DNA of 32,084 nt, taken from the NCBI RefSeq assembly GCF_002259525.1, contig NZ_MWZE01000002.1, positions 1 to 32,084 of the forward strand, written 5' to 3'. The position numbers and the translations under genes were made by a program. The DNA is from Rickettsia endosymbiont of Culicoides newsteadi. GTDB lineage: Bacteria > Pseudomonadota > Alphaproteobacteria > Rickettsiales > Rickettsiaceae. The notes under the pieces were generated by a model. It had not been told where the DNA came from. It made no database searches and worked only from the letters and a program-made list of their open reading frames with translations. Shown piece after piece: positions 19,411 through 31,594 of this stretch; within the stretch, counting starts at the first letter, position 1, and every line of letters starts with the position of its first letter.

Positions 19411-20033
19411 TTACAATTTTGGCTTTAAACATAATTGGCGTAGCTCATTTTCAATTGTCGAGCCAAAATATTTAGCTAGTGGTAAAAAACTATACTTAGT
19501 CTCTTGTATTATTTTCTTTATTTTTTCAGATGGTTTAATTTCAATTGTTTGCATATTATGGATTCGATCACACAATTTAATAAGCAATATGTCATATTTA
19601 CCTTGAAGCCATAACGACTCTACCATTTCCTTTGAGCTAATTTTTCGATCCATTTTTATTCTAGTTAAGTCCTGAACTTGACTGGCAACTAACTTACCAA
19701 AATTATTGGCAATTATTTTTTCAGTAATCTCTGTATCTTCAATCGTATCGTGTAGTACACATGTAACCAGTAAATCTGTTCTAAAAATTTTATATTCTCC
19801 CGTGAAGTATAGTTAGTAAAAATACAAGCAACTTCAATTGGATGAGAATAAAAAGGTTCCCCTGAATCTCGCTTTTGCTTACCATGGTACTCTTTGGCGT
19901 AGTAAATAGCTTTTTTTACTTTGAGAATATCTATCGTATCTGTCTTGTCATGTAACAGTAATAGTTTATCTAGTAACTTATTTGAATAGCAACAAGTTTC
20001 GAATTTTGATTTCCAACAATTAGCCTCTTTCAT
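19411..20033 (-). pseudogene. SpoT-like (p)ppGpp hydrolase fragment, frameshifted
   Basis: Read from 20033 downward, the first frame encodes KAIYYAKEYHGKQKRDSGEPFYSHPIEVACIF, the start of the RelA/SpoT HD hydrolase domain. It shifts frame at a run of five T (AAATTTTTAGAAC) near 19790. The next frame continues FRTDLLVTCVLHDTIEDTEITEKII, with the HDxxED metal motif, and runs to KYDILLIKLCDRIHNMQTI before ending at 19411. Restoring one T joins the parts into one frame of about 207 residues. No synthetase domain is present. The relative at 31473-32084 is uninterrupted and about 35 residues longer at its C-terminus. The stop lies directly against the miniature element at 19267-19410. Confidence 0.85.
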
Positions 20034-20189: not shown

Positions 20190-20211
20190 TGATAATAAGT
20201 ACTTATTATCA
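20190..20211. promoter_or_regulatory. Perfect 22-bp palindrome, candidate operator of the methyltransferase operon
   Basis: The half-site TGATAATAAGT is followed by its exact reverse complement ACTTATTATCA with no spacer. It lies 18 bases before the methyltransferase ATG at 20230. A perfect dyad of this length next to a start suggests binding by a dimeric regulator. AT-richness makes short palindromes common, but 11 matching pairs are much less expected. No regulator gene is adjacent. Confidence 0.5.
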
Positions 20212-20229
20212 AATCTATAAAATAGTATT

Positions 20230-20985
20230 ATGGACATTTGGAAATTGAGCAACATTGCTAACTCGTACAGTGAAACAAAGGAATATAGGTTTAACAATTA
20301 TGTTGTTAATCCACATATCAAAAATTTAATAGGTAGTGCAAAAGATAAGGCCCTATTAGAGGTAGGATGTGGATTTGGTAGGTACTTAGAGATTTTTTCC
20401 AAAGAATGTCCACTAAAATTAGTAGGATGTGATCTTTCTTATTATCAAATAGAATTATGTAAACAATACATACAAAATAATAATATTGGGCTACATGTAT
20501 TAGATTTCTCTGATTCTGCCAGCCCTGAGATAGTAGGTCAAGGTGAATATGATATTGTTTTCAATATTTTTGTAATTTTATACATAGATACTTTAGAGAA
20601 ACTTAAAGCATTTATTACAAATTGTTATAAATGCTTAAAAAAAGGTGGAAAGGTTTTAATATGTACTTTAGATATTTTAAGTGCTTCATTTTACCCAGAG
20701 GTTTTTAGTATATTAAAACTTCCTACAAGACCTTTGCACAACAATAAATATAGTGATGGTTGTCCAATAGAAATAAGTATCACAAATGATTGTGTGGTAA
20801 CGTCTTATCAGAGAGATTTTGATACTTTAAAATCACTAATGACAGAAGTAGGCTTTAAAAATATAAAAAAGTATGATTTATTTTTAGATAAAGTTGCTTT
20901 ACAGGTTTTTACAGATGAGGAATTAAATATTATAAAAAAGTCTAATATACTTCTACTTATAACAGCAGAAAAATTAAATGATTAG
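20230..20985 (+). CDS. Class I SAM-dependent methyltransferase
   Basis: The 251-residue protein has the seven-strand methyltransferase fold. Motif I is LLEVGCGFG (residues 42-50), and the acidic residue after strand 2 is D68 in VGCDLS. A motif IV-like stretch is YDIVFNIFVILYIDT. The post-motif LKAFITNCYKCLKKGGKVLICT, carrying the KKGG turn, is typical. It therefore very probably uses S-adenosylmethionine to methylate a small molecule or a protein; the acceptor is not readable. There is no signal peptide, so it should be cytoplasmic. It is the first of three same-strand genes and begins 18 bases after a perfect palindrome. A pathway enzyme such as UbiG/UbiE is less likely because the C-terminal half does not match them. 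Confidence 0.8.
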   Translation: MDIWKLSNIANSYSETKEYRFNNYVVNPHIKNLIGSAKDKALLEVGCGFGRYLEIFSKECPLKLVGCDLSYYQIELCKQYIQNNNIGLHVLDFSDSASPEIVGQGEYDIVFNIFVILYIDTLEKLKAFITNCYKCLKKGGKVLICTLDILSASFYPEVFSILKLPTRPLHNNKYSDGCPIEISITNDCVVTSYQRDFDTLKSLMTEVGFKNIKKYDLFLDKVALQVFTDEELNIIKKSNILLLITAEKLND

Positions 20986-21041
20986 TAACATTGGTATTAA
21001 AATTACTATGTTAAAAATCTTTACAATATCTTATTTAAGTA

Positions 21042-22391
21042 ATGAATATGTTTAATACTCTTGATCAAGATGTTCAATTAAATATTGAGCAAGTAAAATG
21101 GAGAGAAGTTAGAGATGTGGTACATAGGTGCAATCCTACATTAGCAGAGAAATGCGATAATATTAATAAAGATGCGGAATATCCTTTATTCAAAATGTAC
21201 TATCCTTATGGTGCATTTATTGTTGATAAAGGAGAATTTTACTTACCAACTTTAGATGGTAAAACAATCTCTATAGAAGATAAGCGTATTCCACCAATTT
21301 TAAAAACAAATCTAGGGTATAGCCAAATCCCCTTATCCCTTATTATTGATAAGGCTAGTGAAGTCTTTGTTGAAGCGCAAAATAGAGTAATCTCACTTAA
21401 CTTTCTTAACATAGGGGAAATGTTTGGTTTATTTGAATTAATGAATCTATTCGGTCTAGGATCCCAACACTCTTCGTTAAATACTCCTATTTGGAATATA
21501 TCAGCTGGAGCACGTTCGACATTTATGATTCCAAGCATTTCTAACATGATCAGTTATACTAGAATCAAAAAAAAATTCGGTAAAGATATTCATGTTCCTT
21601 GTAATATTACAGATCATTGGCAAACATTTGTAGATATTCACAAATATAACTGCAATACAAAATCTTGGTATAATACAGTCTTAGTCTTCTCAAGTGGGTG
21701 GTTTTTAGATAAAAATAATCATGCATATATTGAATTATATAAATACTTAGTTAGTAAATGTTGGCAACAATTTCAGTTATTAGAGGATTTTACGGAATTC
21801 AGTTTGTTATGGTCATTTTTTATACATGCCATTAGTAAACGTAATTTAAAACCAAGACCCTACTTAATTGATACTATAAAACATTTGATTTTGATTGCTA
21901 AAGGTTTAGGTATCGCATTTAAACCAACTCCCAATGATACAGCACTACCAATGAGTTTAATACAACAAGTATATAAGGATGATTATCGTTTAAAAGATTA
22001 TATACCAACTATTATGCAACCAACAAAGCTTACAAAAAAAAATAGAGTTTATTATTCTCTTAGCTATCCTAATTTACGTGATAGTTCACCCTATTTAAAA
22101 AATCCTCCCAGTATAATTGAAGATCAAAGAGAAATAAAAAAATTATTAGATATATTAATAAATATTATCCATCAGATTGATACTTTGAATACTAATTCAC
22201 TTAAAAATATAAATTTTGAGCTGTTTCATTCTAATAATGATCCATTTGGTCAAATATTACCTAGCAGAACTATACCAGAAACAGATTCTAGATTTCTAGA
22301 ATCTGCTTCTAATGAAGATAAAAGATTATTCTGTTCTTCATCTAGCTTCTTCAATGGTTGTATCGCTATATATACTACAAACTTAACCTAA
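21042..22391 (+). CDS. Unrecognised 449-residue protein of the methyltransferase operon
   Basis: I do not recognise this protein. It has no signal peptide and no clear membrane helix, and looks like a soluble globular protein. Notable stretches are NIGEMFGLFELMNLFGLGSQ, WNISAGARSTFMIPSISNMI, DHWQTFVDIHKYNC, LVFSSGWFLDKNNHAYIELY and the C-terminal DPFGQILPSRTIPETDSRF. Aromatic and proline residues are frequent, as in enzyme cores. It starts 56 bases after the methyltransferase, and the next gene starts six bases after its stop, so the three genes are almost certainly one transcript. A role as the main biosynthetic enzyme or as a substrate carrier is possible, but nothing in the sequence decides it. 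An internal ATG two codons later (21048) is an alternative start. Confidence 0.75.
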   Translation: MNMFNTLDQDVQLNIEQVKWREVRDVVHRCNPTLAEKCDNINKDAEYPLFKMYYPYGAFIVDKGEFYLPTLDGKTISIEDKRIPPILKTNLGYSQIPLSLIIDKASEVFVEAQNRVISLNFLNIGEMFGLFELMNLFGLGSQHSSLNTPIWNISAGARSTFMIPSISNMISYTRIKKKFGKDIHVPCNITDHWQTFVDIHKYNCNTKSWYNTVLVFSSGWFLDKNNHAYIELYKYLVSKCWQQFQLLEDFTEFSLLWSFFIHAISKRNLKPRPYLIDTIKHLILIAKGLGIAFKPTPNDTALPMSLIQQVYKDDYRLKDYIPTIMQPTKLTKKNRVYYSLSYPNLRDSSPYLKNPPSIIEDQREIKKLLDILINIIHQIDTLNTNSLKNINFELFHSNNDPFGQILPSRTIPETDSRFLESASNEDKRLFCSSSSFFNGCIAIYTTNLT

Positions 22392-22397
22392 GGTGTT

Positions 22398-23714
22398 ATG
22401 AGTAATACTGAGCATAAACAAAAAATATTACCAGTCTTGCAAACTATAGTAGATAGGTTAAAGGTTTGTAAGGATATCAATTTAACAGATGTAACATTTG
22501 TTTGTATACAACATCTTCTATTTACAACAATTGACCTAATAAAATCTCTTATCATGCTCGGTGCCAAGCCAAGCAACATTCATATAATGGGTAAAATATA
22601 TTCAACTTGTCCAGAGGTGGTAGAGCAAATTATAAAATTAGGAGTAATACACTATCATTGTACCCAACCCCAACAATTGGGTAATTTCAATGATTGCTTT
22701 AATAAAGATATAGCTAATATGTGGAATAAGGTTAGCAATACCTTAATCAATACAAAATCTAATAATATTATTATCCTTGATGACGGTAGTAAGTGTATAA
22801 CAAATATTCCAAAATCTTTAAGTGACAATTATACAGTTTTTGCTGTAGAACAAACATCTTCAGGTATAGCTCACATTAAAAAAACTAACATTACTGTACC
22901 CGTAGTTAATGTTGCTTTTTCTGCTGCAAAACAATTATTAGAATCTCCAATGATTGCAAGAGCTGTTGAAATCAAACTTGATAAATTCTTGTCACTACGT
23001 AGTAGTGGTCTTACGTCAGGAGTAGTCGGACTTGGAGTAATAGGAAGGGCTGTTGTTCAGAAACTTTTATCGTTTAATCATAAAGTAATAGTTTACGATA
23101 AGATCAAAGAAAAATGTAATTTCATAAATTCCGTTAAGGTTGCTAATAGTACTCAATTGCTATTTCAGGAAGCAGATTATATTTTTGGTTGTACGGGTGA
23201 AGATATTAGTATTTCTATTAATATAAATGAGATACAAGGAATCAAAAATTTAATCAGCTGCTCATCACAAGATATTGAGTTTCAATCGTTACTTAAAATC
23301 ATTCAAAATAATTATCCCAATATGATCTCAGATGTACTAAGTAATCTATGTTTACCTTTAGATAATGGTATAATTAAAATATATAGAGGCGGATATCCGA
23401 TAAATCTAGATAATTCTGGCGAATCTGTGCCAGCTCAAGATATACAACTTACTCGTGGATTGTTATTAGGTGGGATTATACAAGCTATATTTCAATTAAT
23501 TCAAGAACCTAAGCTGGAATCTAAACAATATATGCTAGATCCTAAAATACAGAAGTTAATAGTACAAGAATTAATGATAAATAGACTAAGCCAGATATCG
23601 GATGAGTCGTTAGTTATGAACTTTTTGGACGAAGAATGGATCAAAAATAATTCTATCGGGTGTTCTACGAAGAAACCTATTATTTTCCCAGAAAGTTTAT
23701 TTAACGTAACTTAA
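22398..23714 (+). CDS. Diverged S-adenosylhomocysteine-hydrolase-like NAD-binding protein
   Basis: The 438-residue protein resembles adenosylhomocysteinase in arrangement. Strand-helix repeats come first (about 30-100). LDDG follows at 128-131, VEQTSSG at 150-156 (compare EETTTG) and K178, with E182 four residues later where the true enzyme has KxxxD. A Rossmann fold follows, with GLGVIGRA at 211-218 and YDK ending strand 2, then FGCTGEDISI near 263-272. The C-terminal GGYPINLDNSG and LTRGLLLGGIIQAI region recalls the SAH hydrolase tail. It could break down SAH made by the neighbouring methyltransferase or do related oxidation/elimination chemistry on another substrate. A 2-hydroxyacid dehydrogenase is an alternative but fits the N-terminal half poorly. 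AAGGTG before the ATG and the six-base gap indicate coupled translation. Confidence 0.65.
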   Translation: MSNTEHKQKILPVLQTIVDRLKVCKDINLTDVTFVCIQHLLFTTIDLIKSLIMLGAKPSNIHIMGKIYSTCPEVVEQIIKLGVIHYHCTQPQQLGNFNDCFNKDIANMWNKVSNTLINTKSNNIIILDDGSKCITNIPKSLSDNYTVFAVEQTSSGIAHIKKTNITVPVVNVAFSAAKQLLESPMIARAVEIKLDKFLSLRSSGLTSGVVGLGVIGRAVVQKLLSFNHKVIVYDKIKEKCNFINSVKVANSTQLLFQEADYIFGCTGEDISISININEIQGIKNLISCSSQDIEFQSLLKIIQNNYPNMISDVLSNLCLPLDNGIIKIYRGGYPINLDNSGESVPAQDIQLTRGLLLGGIIQAIFQLIQEPKLESKQYMLDPKIQKLIVQELMINRLSQISDESLVMNFLDEEWIKNNSIGCSTKKPIIFPESLFNVT

Positions 23715-23728
23715 GATTATTTTAGAAA

Positions 23729-23923
23729 CTCACCTTACGCATGGCATTTAAAAAGGTCATGAAAATAGCTTAGCGTCATTGCGAGCCACCGTAGGTGGCG
23801 TGGCAACCCATTTCTAATCATTTTTCTGGATTGCTTCGTCGACCTTACGGTCTCCTCGCAATGACGGTTTCTCAATTATTGTTTTCTTAAACTAACGCTT
23901 ATGGGGGGTATGCGTAAGGTGAG
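23729..23923. repeat. Nested palindrome between convergent genes
   Basis: The outer arms CTCACCTTACGCAT (23729-23742) and ATGCGTAAGGTGAG (23910-23923) are perfect inverted repeats. Inside lies the CGTCATTGCGAG-type element (23774-23866). It is joined to CTCAATTATTGTTTTCTTAAACTAACGCTTATG, the reverse complement of the inserted sequence at 10297 and 15791, so the insert is in the opposite orientation here. It separates the convergent operon and ABC exporter and may end both transcripts. Confidence 0.8.
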
Positions 23924-23931
23924 TTAGAAAT

Positions 23932-25710
23932 TTAAATTATCAAACCTTTCGCTTGTGATTTCCATAACTTTTTGTACAGTTTACTGTTTTTTAATAGTTC
24001 CTCATGCGATCCATCTTCGACTATACTACCCGCATCAAAAACTAGAAGTCTATCCATATTCAACAAAGTCGATAACCTATGAGCTATAACTAATACAGTT
24101 TTATTTTGCATTAAGTAAGATAGAGAATCTTGTATTAAGCTCTCAGTTTCACTATCTAAACTGCTTGTTGCTTCATCAAGGATTAATATAGGAGCATTCT
24201 TTAATATTGCCCGGGCGATTACTATTCTCTGTCTTTGACCACCTGATAAATTATTACCCCTTTCACCGCATAAGCTTTGGTACCCTTCAGGCATGGCGGC
24301 AATAACTTGATGTATATGAGCTGCTCTTGCCGCCTCTATTACTTCTTCTAAGCTAGCATCTTTTTTTCCATATCTAATATTATCGATAATTGTCCTATGA
24401 AATAGGATTGGTTCTTGTGGTATTATGCTAATATTATCTCGCAAAGAGTCTTGAGTTACATATCTAATATTTTGCCCATCAATTAAAATTTCTCCTTGGT
24501 CTATATCATGCAACCGTGTAATAAGATTGATAAAAGTTGTTTTTCCTGAGCCAGAAAATCCTACTAATCCGACCTTTTGTTGACTCAAAATTGTAATAGA
24601 TTTATTCTCAAATAAATTATTATTATGGTAATATTTAAAACTAACATTTTTAAATGCTATCTCACCTTTTGCAACCCTTAGAAGATGGGGATTATCAATA
24701 TCTTTTATAATATGAGGTTTCATCAATGATAAAGTTTGATGAAAAGAGCCAAATTCTTCAAACATATCCCCTATTTCTTGCGTTAAATCCCAAATTTCAG
24801 TAGTAACAGCCATACACAAAGTAAGTATCAAGACACAATCTCCTATAGTTATTTGCATTTGACTACGAAGCTGTGCCAAATAATAAATCATGATAAAAAT
24901 CATTATAGCACAGATTATTCCTAGTACGTTACGTAGCTTCCACATGAAAAACTGCATAATTTGTTCATTGACTATCGCATTATCTATTCTTGCTTCTAGA
25001 TTTTGACGTTCAAATCTATGAGAAGTAAACATTCGTACTGTACTAATATTGGCTATCAAATCCACAATCTTACCGGCAACTATTGATTTACTTCGGGCAT
25101 AATTTACTGAATATTTATTTACTGTACTTGAACAAATAACAGTAATTCCTATAAAAACACAAATAAATATCAGGAATATAGTGAAAAATATTTGATGAAC
25201 CGAGTACATGGCTACTAGAGAGAAGACAATTACAGCTAACTTATATATAATTTTCTCACCAAATAACGATAGAACCATTTCAAAAGATCTAGAAGCTTCA
25301 GTAATACGATTGGTAATATAACCAGCCAGGTTTTCTTGAAAAAATTTATGATTATGATACTGAGTATAATTATACATCTCATCTAGTATCTGTCCTTTGA
25401 TATAGGGTATTGTTTTTAGATAAACATAATCATAAACCCGCCATATAACATTGACACCCATCCACCAAACTGCATATATTATTGCCCAATACATCATAGA
25501 GGAAGGTAGATATTTAGCTTCTTCATCAGAGAAAGACTCTAGCAAATTTATAATCTTTTGGAGCAATACACCATCAATAGTAGGTATCATTCCCAACATT
25601 ATGCATAACAAACCTAAAACGATTAGTTTAATTTTTCTTTTCTTTAAGAAATAGAAAAATAGCCTTATTGACGAGTTTGAAAAATCAATATTTCCTAGCA
25701 CTACACACAC
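23932..25710 (-). CDS. ABC-type half-exporter (fused permease and ATPase)
   Basis: The 592-residue protein is an MsbA/multidrug-type half-transporter that would act as a homodimer in the inner membrane. Residues 20-310 hold six membrane helices (for example KLIVLGLLCIMLGMIPTIDG and IIYAVWWMGVNVIWRVYDYVY). The ATPase domain (about 345-585) has Walker A GFSGSGKTT (near 385), Q-loop IIPQEP, signature LSGGQRQRIVIARAIL (near 487), Walker B ILILDEATSSLD and the switch histidine in IAHRLST. Exporters of this type move lipids, peptides or small molecules outward. It converges on the methyltransferase operon with only a repeat between them. It could export that operon's product, but it could equally be an ordinary housekeeping exporter. 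The start at 25710 gives a short cytoplasmic lead. Confidence 0.88.
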   Translation of the reverse strand: MCVVLGNIDFSNSSIRLFFYFLKKRKIKLIVLGLLCIMLGMIPTIDGVLLQKIINLLESFSDEEAKYLPSSMMYWAIIYAVWWMGVNVIWRVYDYVYLKTIPYIKGQILDEMYNYTQYHNHKFFQENLAGYITNRITEASRSFEMVLSLFGEKIIYKLAVIVFSLVAMYSVHQIFFTIFLIFICVFIGITVICSSTVNKYSVNYARSKSIVAGKIVDLIANISTVRMFTSHRFERQNLEARIDNAIVNEQIMQFFMWKLRNVLGIICAIMIFIMIYYLAQLRSQMQITIGDCVLILTLCMAVTTEIWDLTQEIGDMFEEFGSFHQTLSLMKPHIIKDIDNPHLLRVAKGEIAFKNVSFKYYHNNNLFENKSITILSQQKVGLVGFSGSGKTTFINLITRLHDIDQGEILIDGQNIRYVTQDSLRDNISIIPQEPILFHRTIIDNIRYGKKDASLEEVIEAARAAHIHQVIAAMPEGYQSLCGERGNNLSGGQRQRIVIARAILKNAPILILDEATSSLDSETESLIQDSLSYLMQNKTVLVIAHRLSTLLNMDRLLVFDAGSIVEDGSHEELLKNSKLYKKLWKSQAKGLII

Positions 25711-28774: not shown

Positions 28775-28822
28775 TTGAAAAAATATGAGCTATCAGAAGT
28801 CAACAACAAAATCAGAGCAACT

Positions 28823-30202
28823 ATGAGTAAAGTTGTTCAAGAAAATACCAGGATTATCCCTAATCGGCAAACTAGCCTTACCAAAGAACAAAAAGAAGCT
28901 GTTGGGCTGTTGTCAATAGGAACATTCCTTGAATATTTTGACTTAATGCTATATGTCCATATGGCAGCGTTTCTTAATCAGTTATTTTTTGAACCTACTG
29001 ATCCTCACACAGCCTCTTTAATGTCGGCTTTTGCCTTTTGTTCTACCTTTGTTTTCCGACCTGTTGGGGCAGTAATATTTGGCTGGTTAGGTGATAATAT
29101 CGGGCGTAAATCTACAGTGATCATGACAACTTTTATGATGGCATTTTCGTGCCTTGTTATGGCTAATCTGCCTACTTATGCCCAGATAGGAAGCATAGCA
29201 GCTTGGATACTGACAATATGTCGTATTATGCAAGGTATGTCTTCTATGGGTGAAATAATAGGGGCCGAACTTTATTTAACGGAAATAATCAAGCCTCCAG
29301 CCCAATACGCAAGCGTGGCACTGATAGGGGTTTTTTCTTCTCTAGGAGGTGTAGCTGCTTTAGGCGTTGCATCACTTGTAACTGTGCATGGTTTTAACTG
29401 GCGTCTGGCATTTTGGTTTGGTGCGGCAGTAGCAGTGATTGGTTCTGTTGCCAGAACAACCTTGCGAGAAACCCCAGAATTTGCTGATGCCAAACGTCGA
29501 ATAAAAAAATTTTTTAAAAAACTAATACTGATACAGCTTGCTTAAAAGATAATCCGATGTGGCAAGAAAAAGTTGATAAAAAAACTATCATAGCTTTCTT
29601 GTTATTACAATGTGTTGCACCAGTATGTTTTTATTTTGCCTATGTTTATTGTGGCAATATTTTAAAGACTTCTTTTAATTACACAACTTCTGAGGTTATC
29701 CATCATAATTTTATTGTTTGTCTAATACAATGTTCAATTGTGTTGATATTAGCGAATTTAAGTTACAAAATCCATCCATTATTAATCATGAAAGTTATAC
29801 TAATAGTATTTTCTATTTTTATGTTATTTTGTCCATATTGGTTGAGTAATCTTCATTTGCCATTTGAGCTATTTTTAGTTCAATCATGTATTATTTTGTT
29901 TGGACATTGTGATGAACCTGCTGTTCCTGTTTTTTTATAAGAACTTTCCTGTTTTTAAACGTTTTAGCAGTGTTAGTATGATACGTGCGGTATCTCGGGC
30001 TTTGATGTATGTAATCACTGCTTTTGGTTTTATTTACATTACTGACTATTTTGGTCATTGGGGATTATGGATTATTATGGTTCCGACAATTATCGGTTTT
30101 GCCTACGGATTATTTTATTTTGATAGATTGGCAAAAAAGTATGGTGATTTACCTATTGCTTTTAGAAACACGGCTACTTATTCCGAAGAAAACAATTATT
30201 AG
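28823..30202 (+). pseudogene. MFS metabolite:proton symporter (ProP-like), copy 1, two frameshifts
   Basis: The copy starts MSKVVQENTRIIPNRQTSLTKEQKEAV, identical in plan to copy 2. It has the MFS motif GWLGDNIGRKSTVIMTT between the second and third helices and ITLRETPEF-like RTTLRETPEFADAKR at mid-length. The frame changes near 29500, in an A/T homopolymer stretch after DAKRRIK. It continues with MWQEKVDKKTIIAFLLL (helix 7 onward) and changes again near 29932, where a run of seven T (copy 2 implies six) breaks PVF-YKNFPVFKR. Intact, it would be about 460 residues with 12 helices, importing an organic solute with protons. An upstream ATG-less extension is not needed; the ATG at 28823 matches copy 2. 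Confidence 0.85.
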
Positions 30203-30210
30203 AGTTAGTT

Positions 30211-31594
30211 ATGAGTAAAGTTGTTCAAGAAAATGCCAGAATTATCCCTGATCGCCAGACTACCCTTACTAAAGAACAAAAAGAAGCTGTTTGTTTACTT
30301 TCAGTGGGGACTTTTTTGGAATATTTTGACTTAATGCTATATGTCCATATGGCAGTTCTTCTAAATGAGCTATTTTTCCCAAAGACTGATCCACATACTG
30401 CTGCTCTCCTTTCTGCTGCCGCTTTTTGTAGCACCTTTATCTTTAGACCATTTGGTGCTTTTTTATTTGGTTGGATAGGGGATACTGTTGGTCGTAAGGC
30501 AACTGTTATTGTAACAACCTTTATGATGGCTATTTCTTGCATTATTATGGCTACTCTTCCAACTTATGCCCAAATTGGCGTTACAGCTGCTTGGTTAGTT
30601 ACAGTGTGTCGCATTATTCAAGGTATATCATCGATGGGTGAAATAATGGGGCTCAAATTTATTTGGTTGAAATTTCAAAACCACCAATACAATATCCAGT
30701 TGTAGCGTTGATAGTAACTTTTTCTACTTTAGGTGGATCTTTTGCTTTAGCTATAGCATCGTTGGTAAATTTTCAAGGATTTAGCTGGCATAATGCTTTT
30801 TGGATAGGAGCAGTGGTTGCTTTAACGGGCATAATTGCGAGAACTGCTTTGCGGGAAACACCAGAATTTGCTGATGCAAAACGACAACTAAAAAAGCTTT
30901 AGCCCCAGCTTTGGATAAGCTAGGCATAGATACAAAAAAACTAGAAGATATGCCTGTTTGGAAGGGAAAAGTTAAGAAAAAAACTGCACTTGCGTATTTT
31001 TTAATAGAATGTGCTTGGCCGGTATCCTTTTATTTTACATATTCTCATTGTGCCAATGTTTTAAAAAACTCTTTTGGCTATAATGCTGAGCAAATCATTC
31101 ATCAAAATTTTATAGTCTCAATGGTGAATCTAGTATCCTATATAATATTGACTTATTTATGCTACAGAATATATCCGTTGATAATCCTTAAAATTAGGTT
31201 GGTAGTATTTTGGGGTTTTATTCTTATATGTCCATATTTATTAGACAATGCTGCTAGTCCATTTGATATACTTTTAATCCAGTCATTTTTTATTATATTT
31301 AGACCTGATGCTTTTCCAGCTGTTCCAATTTATGTTAAACACTTTCCAGTCTTTAAACGCTTTACTTACACTAGTTGGTTATTTGCCTTATCGCGTGCCT
31401 TAATGCATATTGTTACGTCTTTTGGGCTTGTATATTTGATAGAATATTTTGGTCATTGGGGATTATGGGTTATTATGATTCCAGTGAGCTTAGGGTTTGC
31501 ATTTGGGTTACTTCATTTTGAGAAGTTGGACACAGAGGCTGGGAATCACCCTCAAAAATTATCTCGTGATACTTTGGTAAAAGTTGGGGAATAG
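30211..31594 (+). pseudogene. MFS metabolite:proton symporter (ProP-like), copy 2, two frameshifts
   Basis: This tandem paralogue begins eight bases after copy 1. The first frame ends at 30705. Comparison with copy 1 (ATAGGGGCC) shows one G lost in ATGGGGCTC near 30650. After correction GEIMGA-IYLVEISKPP is continuous with copy 1. The second frame (to 30902) ends after DAKRQLKKL, where a run of six A (seven expected) near 30894 shifts the frame. The third part (to 31594) contains the C-terminal six helices, including YVKHFPVFKRFTYTSWLFALSRALMH and LIEYFGHWGLWVIMIPVSLGF. Two single-base insertions restore about 461 residues. The 3' end overlaps the spoT-like gene on the other strand by about 120 bases. 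Confidence 0.85.

Follow-up and report, generated by a model that had tools for sequence, protein, structure and literature searches.

Three open reading frames in the genome of the Rickettsia endosymbiont of Culicoides newsteadi raise the question of whether a methyltransferase (MT), a 449-residue protein of no described family (P449) and a protein resembling SAH hydrolase (SAHHl) act in one pathway, and whether the ABC half-transporter that converges on them takes part in it. The window, as the whole stretch of 32,084 nucleotides analysed here is called, corresponds to contig C106 in an assembly of 1.46 Mb, and a MAG labelled Rickettsia sp. nzgw532 is among its close relatives. Our preferred reading, to which we give a probability of about one in two, is that MT, P449 and SAHHl form a mobile biosynthetic cassette that jointly produces or modifies a small molecule.

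The three frames are open, lie on the same strand and are separated by gaps of only 56 bases (MT to P449) and 6 bases (P449 to SAHHl), as the original prediction had stated (Table 1). Neither a YcaO gene nor a precursor peptide occurs among the frames of 20190-25710. The perfect palindrome noted before the first gene is real, and 15 first-order Markov shuffles of the window produced none as long. However, the sequence ahead of the operon in the related genomes G004 and G008 lacks it, and a role as a conserved operator was therefore rejected. Promoter and terminator scans gave results at chance level only. Divergent from the operon, at 19411-20033, is a SpoT-like HD-domain gene that is split into two frames in the window. 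The same gene is whole in a second genome of the species (G163; 207-aa frame, L080:5813-6436), and related HD genes also flank the operon divergently in G004 and G008. Repeated MFS-transporter-like gene fragments, apparently decaying copies, are found at 28775-31594.

Table 1. Features of the operon region, with positions in the window and the basis of each assignment
Feature	Position	Strand	Basis and remarks
Perfect palindrome of 22 bases ahead of the MT gene	20190..20211		Sequence; absent in related species
MT: class I SAM-dependent methyltransferase, type A	20230..20985	+	251 aa; Methyltransf_11 E 2.6e-13, type A/B comparison, dN/dS 0.16
P449: outside described families; barrel like that of cyclic-nucleotide-binding domains in the N-terminal part, no known counterpart for the C-terminal part	21042..22391	+	449 aa; family scans, relatives, model and fold search, hhalign with shuffles
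SAHHl: SAH-hydrolase-fold NAD-binding protein with changed active site	22398..23714	+	438 aa; profile, alignment, model, Foldseek
Copy of a dispersed genomic repeat, ~130 bases	23774..23903		At a break in synteny, where the operon region ends on its right; not one of the functional parts
ABC half-transporter, converging on MT-P449-SAHHl	23932-25710	minus	Open reading frame

The ABC half-exporter does converge on the three genes across one repeat, and this repeat is one of a family scattered through the window's genome, where it has dozens of matches. The exporter's proposed membership of the set did not survive comparison with related genomes. Close homologues of the exporter (72-97%) occur in 13, or nearly so, of the 14 genomes of other species in the genus, with only distant ones in G011 and G012. 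The gene lies at positions unlinked to the operon in G001, G002, G008 and G009, and a block consisting of the ABC gene, DUF2671 and PCuAC is kept without the operon in G007, G014 and G013. The similarity of these last three genomes to the window begins at 23925, the edge of the dispersed repeat. Judged by synteny, the exporter is a core Rickettsia gene unrelated to the operon, and its convergence on the operon is a repeat-associated rearrangement rather than a functional link. What is left is a three-gene cassette without a dedicated exporter.

P449 is carried by 10 of 262 Rickettsiales genomes searched with a profile (A1), including the second genome of the same species. SAHHl is found beside it in all ten, with an extra ORF between the two in G009, and MT adjoins the pair in nine; no MT occurs within the stretch examined in G009. 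Both the surroundings of the pair and the gene order vary among carriers. The order is MT-P449-SAHHl in the window, G163, G004, G001, G008 and G002, and P449-SAHHl-MT in G022 and G223, while in G053 MT converges on the pair. Pairwise identities of P449 and of SAHHl are correlated (r=0.955 over 9 loci). The dN/dS values between the window and G004, a check named with the original prediction, are 0.16 for MT, 0.26 for P449 and 0.24 for SAHHl, which by sequence comparison places all three genes under purifying selection. Together, the constant adjacency of P449 and SAHHl, their parallel divergence, the presence of MT in nine carriers and this selection support the prediction of a single pathway with methyl transfer. 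A comparison of gene neighbourhoods, also named with the prediction, divides by taxon: no sampled member of the Rickettsiaceae has the P449-SAHHl pair split, but outside this family relatives of P449 occur without SAHHl on Legionella plasmids, and relatives of SAHHl without P449 in Simkania and in further families of the Rickettsiales. A single distant SAHHl and no additional P449 came from 399 sampled Pseudomonadota genomes, a thin sample with Legionella chromosomes outside it, and a contig search with a single P449 sequence matched only the nzgw532 MAG.

The varied genomic locations of the genes, and the presence of relatives on conjugative plasmids of Legionella and Simkania, would also fit a selfish or remnant cargo of mobile DNA: carried between intracellular bacteria by conjugative elements, the genes would have no lasting function in this host and now be decaying. 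P449 is broken in G001, G004, G008, G009 and G022, although G004 is a draft assembly in which the break may be an error, and MT is broken or missing in three carriers (truncated in G001, interrupted in G022). However, all three frames are open in two genomes of the source species, SAHHl is open in all ten carriers, and the dN/dS values argue against decay; we consider this explanation very improbable. The predicted contrast between open frames and decayed neighbours is thus seen in the window, where the HD gene is split, but not throughout the relatives, where P449 and MT are often broken. Since SAHHl stays open where P449 or MT is broken or missing, it may act alone in some hosts.

The first gene is a methyltransferase, as predicted, with the label holding at the superfamily level. 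Its Rossmann domain resembles those of class I SAM-dependent methyltransferases (Methyltransf_11, UbiG-like) and scores 50.9 bits against a Pfam cut-off of 21.2; no NCBIfam subfamily cut-off is reached. Most carriers have this type (A), whereas G002 and G053 have a distant type B. The type B proteins are 48% identical to each other and ~22-26% identical to the window MT over the SAM-binding part. Depending on the genome, the operon has one or the other of these two distant MT types. A defence system was considered and rejected: MT gives only a generic methyltransferase-domain match (mad2), and P449 and SAHHl give nothing.

The second gene was predicted to fit no family, and P449 indeed has no family match in Pfam, NCBIfam, PHROGs or PDB sequences. 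Its AlphaFold model has a whole-model pLDDT of 61.6, with good confidence only at about residues 11-100. With this model, the top 50 Foldseek matches in the PDB are all proteins with a cNMP-binding domain (best E 0.027, probability 0.97). Alignment with hhalign to 27 domains of the cyclic-nucleotide-binding family PF00027 (CRP/FNR, PKA, PKG) gives P 7e-4, or 9e-5 for the N-terminal part alone, compared with 0.11 or worse for 30 column-shuffled control profiles. An N-terminal cNMP-like barrel in P449 is therefore likely, to the extent that the predicted structure and this weak profile match can indicate. P449 differs from PF00027 proteins in the lack of a family-level sequence match (7 members searched with E values up to 5 gave none) and in its C-terminal ~260 residues, which have no known counterpart. 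Because cNMP-binding-like domains are often sensors, P449 could be regulatory; Pfam recognises no DNA-binding domain in it. A phage origin was rejected, as P449 has no PHROGs match and none in 50,697 phage records, and its matches in a viral structure library are noise (probability 0.08 or less).

Relatives of P449 with 24-29% identity are encoded on conjugative or mobilizable plasmids of Legionella in two settings. The first consists of ATP-grasp, ThiS, ThiF, YcaO, TfuA and a POT symporter; here the relative is ~25% identical over 96% of the length. A cluster of this kind (P449 relative-ATP-grasp-ThiS-ThiF-YcaO-TfuA, L023:5888-11818) is conserved on conjugative plasmids of several Legionella species. 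It shares the P449 relative with the Rickettsia operon, but contains neither MT nor SAHHl, having the ATP-grasp, ThiS, ThiF, YcaO and TfuA genes instead. In a 2011 comparative paper the ycaO and tfu genes of this plasmid region were drawn as proteins of unknown function (PMC3218107). The second setting consists of a methylase of the tetrapyrrole type (TP-methylase) together with a 64-aa protein and an MFS transporter. On a Legionella israelensis plasmid (L022:9344-10308), the TP-methylase and the 64-aa protein, which belongs to no family, stand beside a P449 relative and could be a split-borosin-like pair. A search of open-licence papers for borosins in Legionella returned nothing relevant, which is weak evidence of absence.

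The third gene was labelled SAH-hydrolase-like, and this also holds at the superfamily level. SAHHl alone matches only NAD-binding domains, with no AdoHcyase match in Pfam or NCBIfam, but a profile of 16 members retrieves AdoHcyase structures at E 4e-19. In Foldseek its model (mean pLDDT 85.8) has SAHH or SAHH-like proteins as all of its top 50 matches (TM 0.56-0.75). Profile and structure searches, as put forward with the prediction, have thus given SAHHl an SAHH fold and P449 a cNMP-like barrel of moderate support, and have left P449 without a sequence family. The likeness of SAHHl to AdoHcyase (PF05221; AHCY, AHCYL) covers the fold over the whole length and the NAD-binding GxGxxG with its following Asp (G211, G213, G216 and D234, none of which varies among 16 divergent members). 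For the active site we use the human AHCY numbering, and as the set H55, D131, E156, K186, D190, C195 and H301 together with Q/E59 of the adenine site. H39, D129, T153, K178 and E182 of SAHHl are invariant in the same 16 members and align with H55, D131, T157, K186 and D190, respectively, the last being a change from Asp to Glu. Other positions are replaced, with Q152 for E156, S290 for H301, A187 for C195, S183 for N191 and T43 for Q/E59. The C-terminal region also differs, and scores fall below the family thresholds. Identity as a canonical SAHH was rejected on the active-site residues and the thresholds. The residues suggest instead a divergent NAD enzyme, an active-looking but repurposed member of the SAHH fold.

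The original prediction had SAHHl remove the SAH released by the methyltransferase, a role left unsupported because several active-site residues of a true SAH hydrolase are missing. It could be held that SAHHl is nevertheless the divergent SAH hydrolase of the organism, clearing SAH from MT and other methyltransferases, with P449 as an accessory or regulator. The fold, the NAD site and the retained equivalents of H55, D131, K186 and T157 are consistent with this, as is the lack of a canonical SAHH in the ten Rickettsia-genus genomes tested, the carriers among them. However, other Rickettsia survive with neither SAHHl nor SAHH. Moreover, SAHHl relatives coexist with a canonical SAHH in G176 and G183, and so are not simply the SAHH of those organisms. 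Given also the replaced residues and the low family scores, we regard this explanation as rather unlikely. A search of open-licence papers for Rickettsia SAH hydrolase found nothing relevant, again weak evidence of absence. At L086:6772-9766 and L087:6109-11836 the SAHHl relatives are longer (525-528 aa), and behind them a ~460-aa protein is encoded in one to three copies; the one copy scanned has no Pfam match.

Relatives of SAHHl adjoin histidine kinases with six transmembrane segments (6-TM) in three other Rickettsiales (G063, G073 and G093), and in G063 an MT lies between the two genes. The 6-TM domain of these kinases matches, at E 1e-6 to 1e-14, that of Vibrio and Cupriavidus kinases encoded next to a synthase of the CqsA/LqsA type, and no such synthase is found above cut-off in the three genomes. 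The SAHHl relatives occupy the position of the autoinducer-synthase gene beside CqsS/LqsS-type kinases, as in CqsA/CqsS, LqsA/LqsS and PhcB/PhcS, although their fold differs from that of CqsA/LqsA and the Rickettsia operon has no kinase. In Ralstonia the synthase is itself a methyltransferase, PhcB, which makes the signal sensed by PhcS (PMC10653808). The kinase-bearing genomes have 4-9 CqsS/LqsS-type kinases each, so the adjacency is suggestive and may partly be chance. Open-licence papers yielded nothing relevant on SAH-hydrolase-like proteins with quorum-sensing kinases, which is likewise weak evidence of absence.

This neighbourhood raises the alternative of a signalling module, in which SAHHl and MT would produce a quorum-sensing-type signal and P449 would either receive this signal through its cNMP barrel or regulate the pathway. 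The fold predicted for P449 with moderate support would suit such a role, but P449 lacks a recognised DNA-binding domain, and the kinases are multi-copy. In the Rickettsia carriers tested, no CqsS/LqsS-type kinase occurs in the window's genome (G000), G163, G002, G004, G223 or G053, and only a weak match in G022. This alternative is given a small chance. Somewhat less probable is a further proposal, in which SAHHl is the first member of a new class of synthases for signals or secondary metabolites. From a nucleoside, SAM-derived or other, this SAHH-fold enzyme would produce a diffusible molecule. Kinases of the CqsS/LqsS type would sense the molecule in some Rickettsiales, and Rickettsia, without the kinase, would have kept it as a host-directed compound.

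For the biosynthetic cassette that we prefer, SAHHl would run an SAHH-type cycle on a substrate other than SAH, with transient oxidation of a ribose hydroxyl by NAD followed by elimination or addition. MT would methylate the product or an intermediate. The N-terminal barrel of P449 would bind a ligand or intermediate, and its C-terminal part may be catalytic. Also in favour of this reading are the exchange of MT between distant types and the enzyme-rich plasmid clusters that contain P449 relatives. If one kind of product is to be named, a diffusible signal is the best guess, given the CqsS/LqsS-type kinases that adjoin SAHHl relatives elsewhere; against it, the Rickettsia carriers tested have no such kinase beyond the weak match in G022. 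Through their pairing with these kinases in other Rickettsiales, the SAHHl relatives offer a candidate quorum-sensing synthase, distinct from CqsA/LqsA and from PhcB, that can be tested directly. Rickettsia genomes are reduced and have few known biosynthetic clusters, and a co-inherited, selected cassette around a repurposed SAHH fold would suggest that the symbiosis involves a small molecule not yet characterised.
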